This document shows, piece after piece, positions 4,104-59,717 of a stretch of DNA of 64,000 bases (position 1 is the stretch's first letter; each line of letters opens with the position of its first letter). The notes beneath the pieces were generated by a model. That model was not told the DNA's origin, ran no database searches, and was given only the letters and a program-made list of their open reading frames with translations. A program made the position numbers and the translations under genes. The DNA comes from an uncultured Alphaproteobacteria bacterium (GTDB taxonomy: Bacteria; Pseudomonadota; Alphaproteobacteria; Micropepsales; Micropepsaceae): NCBI GenBank assembly GCA_903897605.1, contig CAIUCH010000007.1, positions 1 to 64,000 of the forward strand. Reading direction: 5' to 3'.

Positions 4104-6634
4104 GCGGCTTTTCACTCGCCTGGAAATTGGCGCGGCGCGAGTTGCGCGGCGGCCTGAAGGGTTTTCGGATATTCTTTCTCTGCCTGCTGCTGGGCACCGC
4201 CGCCATCGCCGGCGTGGAATCGCTCAGCGACGCCTTTCTCACTGGCTTGCGCGATTCGGGTCAGACATTCCTGGGCGGCGATATCGCCGTCACCCTGGTA
4301 CACCGGCCCACCACAAAACAGGAAAGCGCTTTCCTTGCCCGGTATGGCCGGCAATCCAGCAACGTCTCGATGCAGTCGATGGCCTATGCCCTGCGGGACG
4401 GCAAGCAGGCCGAGCGTGAACTGGTCGAAATCAAGGCGGTGAATGACAGCTGGCCGCTATTCGGCACACCAAGTTTCACGCCGGCGCAGAGCCTGCCGGA
4501 TATCTTGCATTGCGAGGATGACGGCATCTGCGGCGCGGCGGCGGAGCAGACCTTGCTCGACCGGCTGCATATCAAGCGCGGCGATCTGCTCAAGCTCGGC
4601 GGCGCCACTTTCCGGATCATCGGCACCCTCAACAGCGAGCCCGACCGCATCTCGATGGGCTTTTCGCTGGGGCCCCATATCCTGATATCGACAAAGGCCT
4701 TGGCGGGCACCGGCCTGGAACAGCCGGGCAGTCTGATCGACTACACCTATCGCGTCGCCTTTGCGCATGGCGAGACCATCGAAGGCTTCAAGGCCGATGC
4801 CGCGCGCGCCTTTCCCGATGCGGGTTGGCAGATCCGCGACCGCAACGACGCCGCGCCAGGCATCAGGCGTTTTGTCGAGCAGGTGGCGATGTTCCTGACC
4901 CTGGTGGGATTGACCGCACTGGGTGTCGGCGGTGTCGGTGCCAGCGAAGCGGTGTCGGCTTTCCTGGATCGCAAGCGTTTCGACATCGCAATCCTGAAGT
5001 CGCTGGGCGCGGACGGACGGCTGGTGTTCATGATCTTCTTCCTGCAGGTGATGGCCATTGCGCTGGCAGCGCTTGTTCTGGGTGTCGCGATCGGCGCCAC
5101 CGCCCCATTCCTGCTGGCGCAATTTTTCGGTGACATTCTTCCGCTGCCGCCGGCCCTGGGGATTTATCCGGGGCCATTGCTGCTGGCGGCGGGCTTCGGA
5201 TTATTGTCGGCGATCGCCTTTTCCGTGCCGCCCTTGGGCCGTGCCCGCGAAATCCCCCCCGCCAGCCTGCTGCGCGAAACCGTGGCGCCGGACAAGACAC
5301 GCCTTCGGCCGGTCTATTGGTTGGCGGCCGGCGCCGCCGGCCTCGGGATTACGGGGTTGATGCTGGCACTGGCGCCCTCGCCGCTTTACGCGGGCGGATT
5401 TCTGGGCGGCGCGATTGTGCTTTTGGGTTTGCTGCGCGCGGTGGCCGGGGCCCTGACATGGACGTTGCGCAAACTGCCCCGGCCCCGCTCGCCCCTGGCG
5501 CGTCTGGCGGTGGGGGACCTCACCCGTCCTGGCGCGGCGACCCAAGGCGTGGTCACCGCGCTGGGCCTGGGGCTGACTTTGCTGGCGACCATCATCCTGC
5601 TCGATCGCACCATGGCCGCCGAAGTGAACGAAGCCCTGCCCAGCCGCGCGCCCAGTTTTTTCTTTGTCGATATCCAGCCCGACCAGGTTGGCGATTTTGA
5701 CCGCACCATTGCCGCCTTCAAGACGCGGCAGGACTATAAGCGCACGCCAATGATCCGTGGACGGATCACGTCCCTGAACGGCGTGCCATCCGCCCAGGCG
5801 AAAGTCGATCCGGATGTGAAATGGGCGCTGTCGGGCGATCGCGGCATCACCTACGCGATGACGCCGCCGCCCGGCACCATCATCACCAGCGGAGGCTGGT
5901 GGGACGCGAACTATACTGGCCCCACCTTGATTTCATTGGACCAGGAAGTGGCCAAGGGCACCGGTCTCAAGATCGGCGACGCCATGAGCCTCAATGTGCT
6001 GGGGCGGCAGATCGACGGCAGGATCGCCAATCTGCGCAAGGTGGACTTCCGCAGCGGCGGGCAGAATTTCATCCTGGTGCTGTCGCCCGGCCTGATCGAC
6101 AAGGCGCCGCATTCCTTCCTCGCCACCGTCCGCGTCGCGCCGGCGGAGGAAAACGCGATGTACATGGCGGTGACGGAGAAATTCCCCAATATCTCCGCCG
6201 TGCGGGTGAAGGACGCCATCGCCCAGGTCGACACATTGTTGCAGCAGCTGGCGCAAGGCATCCGCGCCGCCAGCCTTGTCACCATCCTGGCGGGGCTTCT
6301 GGTGCTGGCGGGGACCATCGCGGCAGGCGCGCGCACGAGGCTTTACGATGCCACGGTGCTGAAAGTGGTGGGCGCAACCCGGGCCCAGATCGGGATGGTC
6401 TATGTGCTGGAATATGGCCTTCTGGGAATCGCCACCGGCATCATCGCCCTGGGCGCGGGCACCCTGGCCGCCAGCGTGATCGCGCGACAGGTGCTGGACA
6501 CCAGCTTCGTCTTTGACGCCCAGGCGGCACTCTGGACGGTCGTGGGCGGCGGCGCGGCGACCCTCCTGTTCGGCCTTTTTGGCGCCATCGCGGCCCTGAA
6601 CGCGCGGCCCGCAGGCCGGCTGCGGAACGCCTGA
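4100..6634 (+). CDS. ABC transporter permease, YbbP-like (FtsX family)
   Basis: The 844-residue protein starts with GTG overlapping the ATPase stop. It has an N-terminal membrane helix (about 20-40) followed by a large periplasmic domain, three helices near 255-375 with an FtsX domain, a central pair of helices near 410-460 and 490-515, a second periplasmic domain, and a final FtsX domain with three helices (about 715-835). Duplicated FtsX domains with ten membrane segments are the hallmark of the YbbP/LolC-E-type mechanotransmission permeases. Inference: it exports or extracts a lipophilic substrate, perhaps connected with the neighbouring SGNH hydrolase. The substrate cannot be read from sequence. 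Confidence 0.88.
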   Translation: MSGFSLAWKLARRELRGGLKGFRIFFLCLLLGTAAIAGVESLSDAFLTGLRDSGQTFLGGDIAVTLVHRPTTKQESAFLARYGRQSSNVSMQSMAYALRDGKQAERELVEIKAVNDSWPLFGTPSFTPAQSLPDILHCEDDGICGAAAEQTLLDRLHIKRGDLLKLGGATFRIIGTLNSEPDRISMGFSLGPHILISTKALAGTGLEQPGSLIDYTYRVAFAHGETIEGFKADAARAFPDAGWQIRDRNDAAPGIRRFVEQVAMFLTLVGLTALGVGGVGASEAVSAFLDRKRFDIAILKSLGADGRLVFMIFFLQVMAIALAALVLGVAIGATAPFLLAQFFGDILPLPPALGIYPGPLLLAAGFGLLSAIAFSVPPLGRAREIPPASLLRETVAPDKTRLRPVYWLAAGAAGLGITGLMLALAPSPLYAGGFLGGAIVLLGLLRAVAGALTWTLRKLPRPRSPLARLAVGDLTRPGAATQGVVTALGLGLTLLATIILLDRTMAAEVNEALPSRAPSFFFVDIQPDQVGDFDRTIAAFKTRQDYKRTPMIRGRITSLNGVPSAQAKVDPDVKWALSGDRGITYAMTPPPGTIITSGGWWDANYTGPTLISLDQEVAKGTGLKIGDAMSLNVLGRQIDGRIANLRKVDFRSGGQNFILVLSPGLIDKAPHSFLATVRVAPAEENAMYMAVTEKFPNISAVRVKDAIAQVDTLLQQLAQGIRAASLVTILAGLLVLAGTIAAGARTRLYDATVLKVVGATRAQIGMVYVLEYGLLGIATGIIALGAGTLAASVIARQVLDTSFVFDAQAALWTVVGGGAATLLFGLFGAIAALNARPAGRLRNA

Positions 6635-55286: not shown

Positions 55287-55787
55287 TTGGTCAAGGCGGA
55301 TCTTGGAACGAAACGGGGCTGCCCCAGTTGTGGCGCACGCTTCTACGACCTTACGAAGCGTCCGATCGAATGCCCGAAGTGCGGCTTCTCGTTCGAGCCG
55401 GAAGCACTTTACAAGCAGCGCCGCGGCCGTCAGCCCGAGCCCGCAGTCGCCGTCGTGCCCGTTGCCGAGGCGGAAGACGAAGAGGCGGAGAACGAGAATG
55501 AGGAGGCCGAAACCGAGGAAGAGGAAGAGGAAGTCGTCGAGCAAGCACCGCTGATCGTGGCCGCCACCGGCGAGGAAGAAGACGAAACCGCCGAAGAAGA
55601 GGAAGCCGAGGCGGAGTCCGGCATGAGCGTTGTCGAGGGTGACGAAGAGGTCGCCATCGAGGATATCGAAGTCGAAGACGAGGACGACGACGAGGAAGGC
55701 GATGACAGCCTTCTCGCCGAAGTCGAGGAAGACGAAGAAGACGTCGCCGGCATCATTGATCCGGGCATTGCCAAGGACGAAGCCTAG
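55287..55787 (+). CDS. FYDLN-acid family protein (TIGR02300 type)
   Basis: The 166-residue protein starts at TTG with [33 protein letters not shown], a four-cysteine zinc ribbon (two CxxC pairs) with the FYDL motif, then a very acidic low-complexity tail rich in Glu and Asp to the end. This is a known alphaproteobacterial family with no assigned function. It normally lies between aroA and a tRNA-Ala gene, as here. TTG is the only start that fits the domain; AGGAACGAG is a weak ribosome site. The 50 bases after its stop lead to the tRNA. Confidence 0.88.
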
Positions 55788-55836
55788 ACAGGGAATTGCG
55801 CGCCGCCCGCGACCAGCAGGGAAGGCGTCTGAAATC

Positions 55837-55912
55837 GGGGCCATAGCTCAGCTGGGAGAGCGCCTGCATGGCATGCAGGAGGTCAGCGGTTCGATCCCGC
55901 TTGGCTCCACCA
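55837..55912 (+). tRNA. tRNA-Ala (GGC anticodon)
   Basis: The 76-base sequence folds as a cloverleaf: acceptor GGGGCCA with TGGCTCC, D-arm GCTC...GAGC, anticodon stem CCTGC/GCAGG with loop ATGGCAT (anticodon GGC), T-arm with GTTCGATCC-type loop, discriminator A and an encoded CCA at 55910-55912. Confidence 0.97.
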
Positions 55913-55980
55913 TTTCCCGCCTCCACGATTTTGCAGAACCCGCACCGCCCGCGCCAGCGGGAAATGGTGGAGCCAAGCGG
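55897..55980. repeat. 24-bp inverted duplication of the tRNA-Ala 3' end
   Basis: CCGCTTGGCTCCACCATTTC plus CCGC (55897-55920), covering the tRNA T-arm edge, acceptor strand, CCA and eight following bases, is repeated exactly in reverse complement at 55957-55980 after a 36-base spacer. It could fold into a very stable hairpin. The rest of 55981-56162 has GC-rich stems but no gene I can support. Confidence 0.85.
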
Positions 55981-56162
55981 CCGAGTGCGCCGCGCGCCAG
56001 CGTCTTAAGGCGCACGAGGCGCGCAGGCGGGTTCCAAGCGATCACCACCACGTCCTCCCCACCTGACGCCAAATTCACCCGCCCGGGACAACTCGCTACA
56101 ATTGCAGCAGACATCGCGTCCCTGGCGGGGCTAAAATCCCTGGCCGTCAACGGATATGTCTA

Positions 56163-57665
56163 TTGAGCGCCTTTCTGGACGCCCGCACCCTCCCCCGGGA
56201 AACAATTCTTTCTCCCGATCTGGCGATCATCGGCGGCGGACCCGCCGGCATCAGCCTGGCGCTGGCGATGGCCGATAGCGGCCAGAATGTCCTGTTGTTG
56301 GAAGCGGGCGCCCTGGCCTTCGAGGCGGGCGCGCAAAAACTCTATCAGGGCAGCGAGAGCGGCGTTGCCTACACCGCATTGGACGGCGGACGACTGCGGT
56401 TTCTGGGCGGCAGCACCAATCATTGGGGCGGCTGGTGCCGGCCGCTGGACAAGATCGATTTCGACAGTCGTGACGGCGTGCCCCATTCCGGCTGGCCCTT
56501 TGCACGCAGCGAGATCGAACCGTATTTCGCGCGCGCCCAGTCACTGGTGGAGGCGGGACCCTGGATCTATGACGGCGCCGATCATTCAGTATCGGACAGC
56601 GGTTCGCTGCTGCGGCTGGGACCCGGCGGCGTCTATACGAGCTGGTTTCAATTCTCCAAGACCCAGGGCGGCATCCTGCCCACCCATTTCGGTGAGCGTT
56701 ACCAGAACGATCTCAAGCGCGCACCCCACATCACGCCGCTGCTCAACGCCAATGTCACCGGCATCAAACTCTCAGGCGACGCAAGTCATGTCGACCATCT
56801 CGATATCGTGACCCTTTCCGGCAACCGCCTGACGGTGAAGCCCCGCTATACGGTGCTGGCGGCGGGTGCGATCGAGAATGCGCGGCTTTTGCTCGCCTCC
56901 AACGACGTGATGGCGGCGGGCGTGGGCAATGGCAATGATGTGGTGGGCCGTTTCTTCGCCGACCATCCCATTCCGCGCAACGTCGCCACCCTGGTGCTGT
57001 TCGACGGAAGGGTGGCGCCCTTCTATTCCAACTTTCTGACCTTGCCGAACGGCGCGGTATTGCGCGCAGTCTTGTCGCCACGGGAAGAATTTCTGCGCGC
57101 CCATGGCGTGGCGGGATCGCTGTCCACCGTGGAAAACGAAATCAAGCTCGACCCATTGGCGATCGCCGCGGTGGAAACCACCGCCGGGGCGCTGGGGGTG
57201 GATGCATCGGGCGCCAAGGCTTTTTCGCTTGGTTGCGGCATGGAGCTGGCGCCGGACCCCGAGCGCCGTGTCACGCTCGGCCAGGAACGCGACGCGCTCG
57301 GCCTGCCGCAGCCCAATCTCCACATGACGATCACCGACGATGACTTTTCGCATTTCCGCCAGACCCTGGCGGAGCTGGGCCGCCAGCTGCTCGCAGCGAA
57401 ATCCGGCATGATCCATCTGAGCTACAGCCAGCGGCACGACTGGCTGGCCGCGATGGATTGGGGCAATCACCATCTGGGCACCACCCGCATGAGCGCCGAT
57501 CCCAGGCAGGGCGTCGTTGATGCCGCCAGCAAGGTTCACGGTGTGGCCAATCTGTATGTGGCGGGCGGTTCGGTATTTCCCACCTATGGCTCGTCCAATC
57601 CCACGCTCAATTTGGTGGCGCTGACCTTGCGCCTGGCCGACCGGCTGAAAAAGGTGATGGCATGA
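56163..57665 (+). CDS. GMC-family FAD-dependent oxidoreductase
   Basis: The 500-residue protein has an N-terminal FAD site DLAIIGGGPAGISLALAMADSG, a LRFLGGSTNHWGGWCRPL segment, and the C-terminal GMC signature HHLGTTRMSADPRQGVVD followed by NLYVAGGSVFPTYGSSNPTLNL. The histidine of HHLGT is the usual catalytic base. Members oxidise sugars, polyols or alcohols. It starts with TTG, and a small exported-type protein gene overlaps its end, suggesting a two-subunit dehydrogenase. Substrate unknown. There is no signal peptide of its own. Confidence 0.88.
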   Translation: MSAFLDARTLPRETILSPDLAIIGGGPAGISLALAMADSGQNVLLLEAGALAFEAGAQKLYQGSESGVAYTALDGGRLRFLGGSTNHWGGWCRPLDKIDFDSRDGVPHSGWPFARSEIEPYFARAQSLVEAGPWIYDGADHSVSDSGSLLRLGPGGVYTSWFQFSKTQGGILPTHFGERYQNDLKRAPHITPLLNANVTGIKLSGDASHVDHLDIVTLSGNRLTVKPRYTVLAAGAIENARLLLASNDVMAAGVGNGNDVVGRFFADHPIPRNVATLVLFDGRVAPFYSNFLTLPNGAVLRAVLSPREEFLRAHGVAGSLSTVENEIKLDPLAIAAVETTAGALGVDASGAKAFSLGCGMELAPDPERRVTLGQERDALGLPQPNLHMTITDDDFSHFRQTLAELGRQLLAAKSGMIHLSYSQRHDWLAAMDWGNHHLGTTRMSADPRQGVVDAASKVHGVANLYVAGGSVFPTYGSSNPTLNLVALTLRLADRLKKVMA

Positions 57666-59632: not shown

Positions 59633-59717
59633 CTTCTGAGCAGGGTTGCCTAGCGACAGCGTAGGCAACGCGCGGAGCGTGCGCCTATCACATGAGCACG
59701 CGCGACGAACTCAGAAG
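59633..59717. ncRNA. Structured intergenic element (three-way junction)
   Basis: An outer eight-pair stem, CTTCTGAG (59633-59640) with CTCAGAAG (59710-59717), encloses two hairpins: GTTGCCTA/TAGGCAAC (59645-59652 and 59662-59669) and GCGTGC/GCACGC (59677-59682 and 59696-59701). All three stems are perfect. It lies between the cyclophilin and the convergent ptsN gene, so it may be a 3' terminator structure, a small RNA or a repeat unit. No named family is recognised. Confidence 0.5.

Follow-up and report, generated by a model that had tools for sequence, protein, structure and literature searches.

A tRNA-Ala(GGC) 3' end and its exact inverted copy form a hairpin kept across an alphaproteobacterial clade and met again in unrelated bacteria

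Template switching, as argued in one study (PMC8794818), creates RNA stems, while its role in their maintenance is less clear; on that account such stems can originate from template-switch mutation, and may be preserved with its help, in the absence of any regulation, and how long perfect stems arise and persist is posed as an open question. The hairpin described here, at a tRNA-Ala(GGC) gene of an uncultured alphaproteobacterium, resembles the hairpins treated there in its perfect reverse-complement stem, of the kind that arises in one event, and in later compensatory multi-base changes. It differs from what is presented there in that one arm is locked in a mature tRNA, which the stem would dismantle, and in that it is maintained over a whole clade. 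The att repeats of integrative elements likewise consist of a tRNA 3' end plus a few downstream bases, but here the copied segment is inverted and 36 nt off, its trailer covaries, and the genome holds no direct repeat or element. GC-rich palindromes, which come after the copy here and after the tRNA itself elsewhere in the genus, resemble REP-like palindromic repeats; unlike such repeats, the tRNA-derived part is found at this one locus of its genome. Bidirectional intrinsic terminators also place a hairpin immediately after an RNA gene, and related repeats in Paenibacillaceae and at tmRNA genes contain a terminator-like hairpin, whereas the stem described here reaches 16 nt into the tRNA and has neither a T-run nor a terminator call. 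Among the records listed in a literature search, none describes such an inverted copy of a tRNA end.

Table 1. Features of the tRNA-Ala(GGC) locus, in positions of the window (the whole stretch of 64,000 nt that was analysed)
Feature	Position	Strand	Remarks
TIGR02300/FYDLN_acid gene upstream of tRNA-Ala(GGC)	55293..55787	+	synteny anchor; start codon unsettled
tRNA-Ala(GGC) gene, CCA encoded	55837..55912	+	ARAGORN; Rfam RF00005, 62.2 bits
Left arm: tRNA positions 61-76 plus 8 trailer bases	55897..55920	+	24 nt; 24/24 (100%) complementary to 55957-55980, 36 nt between the arms
Trailer part of left arm, TTTCCCGC	55913..55920	+	covarying portion of the stem
Loop, 36 nt	55921..55956	+	C-rich and G-poor (17 C, 7 G)
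Trailer part of right arm, GCGGGAAA	55957..55964	+	24/24 arm match
Inverted copy, tRNA positions 76-61	55965..55980	+	the - strand reads as a tRNA-Ala 3' end
GC-rich palindromic repeat-like stretch directly after the inverted copy	55981..56036	.	short matches only elsewhere in its own genome

A sequence-only reading had reported an exact 24-bp inverted duplication with arms 36 bases apart, and all 24 positions indeed match (Table 1). It had named the acceptor strand, CCA, and eight downstream bases as the copied segment, which is correct for those parts and overlooked the T stem: the left arm runs through the 3' strand of the T stem, the 3' strand of the acceptor stem, the discriminator, and CCA, and then takes in eight trailer bases, giving 16 bp of tRNA and 8 bp of trailer. 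An exact reverse-complement copy this near its source (24/24, 36 nt apart) is as expected of a template-switch hairpin. This is the longest perfect inverted repeat in the 64-kb window at spans of up to ~260, with a runner-up of 16 bp, and the RNA from 55837 to 55990 is predicted to fold 4.0 sd below shuffled sequences. Inverted repeats with arms of at least 19 bp number three in 400 kb of the genome's other contigs, one of them reaching 25 bp; in C57 of this genome, a 25-bp perfect inverted repeat with a 112-nt loop lies just past the apparent end of a coding region (L239:13579-13740). Of the genome's tRNA genes (36 Rfam tRNA hits), 31 were inspected; one has an inverted copy of its 3' end, and the other 30 have nothing comparable. 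Trailer hairpins at a few other tRNAs of the genome take in the final CA only, with the stem starting exactly at the CA of CCA (L056, L066, L076), and hairpins that start in the same way follow tRNAs in the relative G035 (L255:1550-1589 and L259:17119-17153). Among Rfam models, the tRNA alone passes the cut-off; miRNA, permuted-tmRNA, and other weak hits stay below their gathering scores.

The source genus belongs to the Alphaproteobacteria and is represented mostly by draft genomes. The exact pattern TGGCTCCACCAN{35,65}TGGTGGAGCCA occurs in 11 of its 69 genomes, at a single site in each. Eight genomes have no usable tRNA-Ala(GGC) locus in the set used, and imperfect copies were examined at the 61 loci inspected singly: 11 carry the exact hairpin, four have one or a few mismatches (G070, G071, G087, and G017), one is degenerate (G012), and 45 are without it. 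These tRNA genes are orthologous by position, with the TIGR02300 gene upstream at 59 of the 61 loci. In a tree built from two short proteins (aroA and TIGR02300) of 55 genomes, from which G001, G017, G011, G031, G080, and G085 are absent, all 14 hairpin genomes included fall within a single clade (support 99/100). It has 23 members, and in nine of them the tRNA is without the hairpin. The hairpin label needs nine gains or losses on this tree, six of them forced by well supported branches, so a single origin is plausible, not established; one gain followed by several losses seems to us the simplest reading. In several of the nine hairpin-less members the DNA after CCA looks, by eye, inserted or replaced. 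In G066 the inverted copy is intact but displaced, standing 6,661 bp from the tRNA on its downstream side; it is the sole displaced copy in a hairpin-less genome among the matches listed, which leave out G092 and part of G091. Outside the clade, trailers appear by eye too diverged for a comparison that could reveal an ancestral sequence from before the copy arose. In the wider class, the pattern occurs in 4 of 385 genomes, two of them members of the genus; the other two matches were read, from sequence alone, as chance.

Several further arrangements were seen around these loci. GC-rich palindromic stretches similar to that in the window follow the inverted copy in other species of the clade, and in some genus members a GC-rich palindromic element begins directly at the CCA of tRNA-Ala (L022, L023, L028, L105, and L106). 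The motif CTAGCGNCAGCGTAG lies in a small palindrome of the window (59650-59664) and occurs four times in ~464 kb of the genome. G063 carries a unit, CTCCACCAAATTTCC, that is tandemly repeated with small variations after a partial tRNA-Ala 3' end (L128:1580), and in G090 (L091) a second, degenerate inverted copy (GCAGGAAATTGTTGGAGCCAGGCG) stands in tandem downstream of the first. In G081 another tRNA-Ala locus (L125) shows the repeat with a short loop and a gap of one base; this bin probably mixes two species, because a TIGR02300 gene is upstream at both of its tRNA-Ala loci.

To compare rates of change, we used two deep branches of the clade (4 by 10 species, 40 species pairs, G012 and G017 left out). 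Between them the 16-nt copy is 92% identical, while identity is 45% in the loop (38% when shuffled), 44% in the 60 nt downstream (38% shuffled), and 35% in the 45 nt upstream of the tRNA (33% shuffled). These alignments show an inverted copy that was maintained while its loop and flanks drifted. The tRNA half of the stem cannot covary because the tRNA is fixed, and the evidence there is conservation; the trailer stem, extending 8-11 bp beyond CCA, varies in sequence by species with complementarity mostly kept. Its left arm reads TTTCCCGC, ATTCCCGC, ATTTCCCGC, TTTCCGCC, or TTTTCGCC depending on the species, and the partner arm follows. Single-base indels are matched on both sides (ATTCCC/GGGAAT beside ATTTCCC/GGGAAAT, and TTTCCCGCC/GGCGGGAAA beside TTTCCGCC/GGCGGAAA), and the first trailer pair, at position 77, is A-T in nine species and T-A in seven, a double transversion without a G-U intermediate. 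Across the alignment 94.5% of cells are paired and the covariation score is 0.108, neither of which was reached in 500 shuffles; structures slid along the alignment have 30-52% of cells paired and score at most 0.052. Twelve cells changed on both sides (0/500 shuffles as high), and the number of pairs changing on both sides (three) is not above shuffles (91/500 as high). As aligned, the trailer stem shows compensatory changes. Aligning relatives had been proposed as a check on whether the copy co-varies with the tRNA: the copy is kept across relatives rather than absent from the close ones, and its trailer part covaries. The stem is broken in 5 of 16 species (G070, G071, G087, G017, and G012), mostly by non-wobble mismatches, and exact pairing is therefore not essential. 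Selection and a template-switch process are not separable here as the keeper of the perfect stem; the matched indels and mostly non-wobble mismatches lean towards template switching, and clade-wide conservation and the conserved loop composition lean towards selection.

We surveyed 84,980 genomes, one per species, with the pattern GGCTCCACCAN{34,64}TGGTGGAGCC, which covers alanine-type ends. It yielded 63 stretches, of which 11 belong to the source genus by sequence, and many of the remainder overlap no RNA gene and resemble chance matches in coding sequence. Taken together with a sample of Paenibacillaceae, the survey gives 21 distinct cases outside the genus in which a tRNA-like T arm stands at the expected distance; their trailer arms are of 16 different sequences. 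Of these cases, 18 are on tRNA-Ala(GGC) in Paenibacillaceae (two with partial tRNAs), and three are on tmRNA, with its identity confirmed, in two further lineages. Isolate genomes of Paenibacillus and Cohnella are among the sources. In the Paenibacillaceae sample 13 of 197 genomes are positive, a count that includes four genomes reached because they were positive, and the loop in this family contains a terminator-like hairpin with a T-run. A 14-bp version occurs at a tRNA-Thr in Brevibacterium. In uncultured Pseudoteredinibacter (L137:931-995 and L180:5778-5842) the tmRNA 3' end and a terminator-like hairpin make up perfect inverted repeats of 31-33 bp. After the tRNA-Ala of P. harenae (L226:3261-3572) comes a 236-bp unit that contains a terminator-like hairpin, with the inverted copy towards one end and, at the opposite end, 17 bp copied directly from the tRNA 3' end; similar units lie past a few genes, near 5586-6049 (L226), and the 236-bp unit looks like a tiny integrative unit. 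A viral origin was considered and rejected: 20 viral stretches have the pattern, none with a tRNA found there, and a single non-tRNA repeat family accounts for 18 of the 20.

In the predicted folds of the window's own sequence, the full hairpin gains 16.5 kcal/mol over the most stable structure in which the cloverleaf is preserved. Over 15 species the advantage ranges from 3.1 to 26.3 kcal/mol (G017, whose tRNA is cut by the contig end, was omitted); the minimum-energy fold of G012 does not use the hairpin. When the transcript is modelled as it grows, the acceptor stem is last intact 57 nt after CCA, alongside the trailer stem, and is gone from 60 nt after CCA onward. Between 30 and 48 nt after CCA the minimum-energy fold also lacks the acceptor stem, but the cause there is a different one, and a simple two-state picture is the weaker for it. 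The hairpin is thus predicted to displace the cloverleaf when the RNA extends ~60 nt past CCA. The suggestion that it competes with folding of the tRNA agrees with the predicted gain of 16.5 kcal/mol, with the restriction that the full hairpin would compete only from that point on. An intrinsic terminator, one of the roles suggested earlier, is not borne out: none was found at 55600-56300, and the stem, with its 36-nt loop, is not followed by a T-run. The earlier reading also named an RNase target and a control of tRNA maturation, which are candidate roles.

The loop contains more C than G in all 16 hairpin species. Over the 45 nt after CCA these species average 20.0 C and 6.9 G, with C exceeding G in 16 of 16, and the rest of the genus averages 13.8 C and 11.5 G, with C exceeding G in 28 of 45. 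Rho prefers C-rich, G-poor RNA. The loop composition suits Rho, and composition is what the Rho idea rests on.

The hairpin is real and no accident, because it has been kept perfect for long in relatives and is met again in unrelated bacteria. Chance or an assembly artefact, such as a fold-back read, might be suspected where many of the genomes are draft metagenome assemblies, but this reading, to which we give next to no credence, is already contradicted: 11 of 69 species genomes share the hairpin, each species with a trailer arm of its own, and isolates of Paenibacillus and Cohnella carry it as well. The explanation that we favour, at somewhat less than even odds, is a transcript-end hairpin that arose by template switching, is kept near-perfect, and acts at the end of the tRNA transcript. 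An inverted duplication would have copied the tRNA 3' half and eight trailer bases 36 nt further on. In the normal course the nascent tRNA would fold and be processed, with the C-rich, G-poor loop loading Rho or, alternatively, the 8-11 bp trailer stem marking the transcript end. Should the polymerase run through the copy, the trailer stem would nucleate the 24-bp hairpin, which could branch-migrate into the acceptor and T arms and so fold read-through transcripts out of the tRNA pool. On these models the hairpin probably acts by loading Rho and by removing read-through RNA from the pool. What keeps the stem perfect may be selection for pairing, template-switch repair from the functionally fixed tRNA arm, or both. 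A bolder form of the proposal, which we judge improbable, is a cis-encoded anti-tRNA arm: a sequence exactly complementary to the mature 3' end, downstream of RNAs that accept alanine (tRNA-Ala(GGC) or tmRNA), that would have evolved in several unrelated bacteria, nucleate on the covarying trailer stem, and dismantle over-extended precursors as a fail-safe coupling 3'-end formation to tRNA survival.

The strongest competitor, unlikely as we judge it, keeps the template switches and dispenses with function: the stem would be made and re-perfected by quasipalindrome correction, with its tRNA-derived part doing nothing. The matched indels, the double transversions, and the mostly non-wobble mismatches of imperfect members all speak for it, as do the similar repeats built around terminator-like hairpins in Paenibacillaceae and at tmRNA genes, and the mechanism is described in PMC8794818; yet a 36-nt loop seems to us long for hairpin priming, clade-wide upkeep without benefit would need frequent correction, and the C-rich composition of the loop is conserved too. 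It is improbable that the copy is instead the end of a small element (the copy plus palindromic repeat) using the tRNA 3' end, akin to the tRNA-Ala units of Paenibacillus. The 236-bp unit of P. harenae, which has CCCCCTAGGCTCCACCA at the end remote from the inverted copy, and the further such units would fit an element, and so would the repeat-like palindromes after the alphaproteobacterial copy, the second degenerate copy downstream in G090, and the intact copy 6.66 kb from its tRNA in G066. Against an element, the copy is single in its genome, the downstream DNA contains no direct repeat of the tRNA end, and trailer covariation is unexpected of an inserted end. The copy with its flank has one full-length match in the genome and is not multi-copy in the manner of REP or MITE repeats; inversion of the loop, a sign of recombination, was not seen by eye in the aligned loops. 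The 144-nt segment compared with its own genome gave no further direct copy at the locus, and the earlier view that this is not a standard att remnant stands, the copy being inverted and the genome without a direct repeat of the tRNA end. A regulated switch, in which control over the balance between hairpin and cloverleaf would set the level of tRNA-Ala(GGC), seems more improbable still: two exclusive folds are predicted, and the preference passes from one to the other 57-60 nt after CCA, but no sensor domain or Rfam family was found, arm spacing varies by a few nt, and five members are imperfect.

Because tRNA function fixes one arm of this hairpin, the direction of repair is known, and the locus offers a test between selection and template-switch correction. 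Should the hairpin act, bacteria of at least two phyla would have in it a means to discard read-through tRNA precursors.
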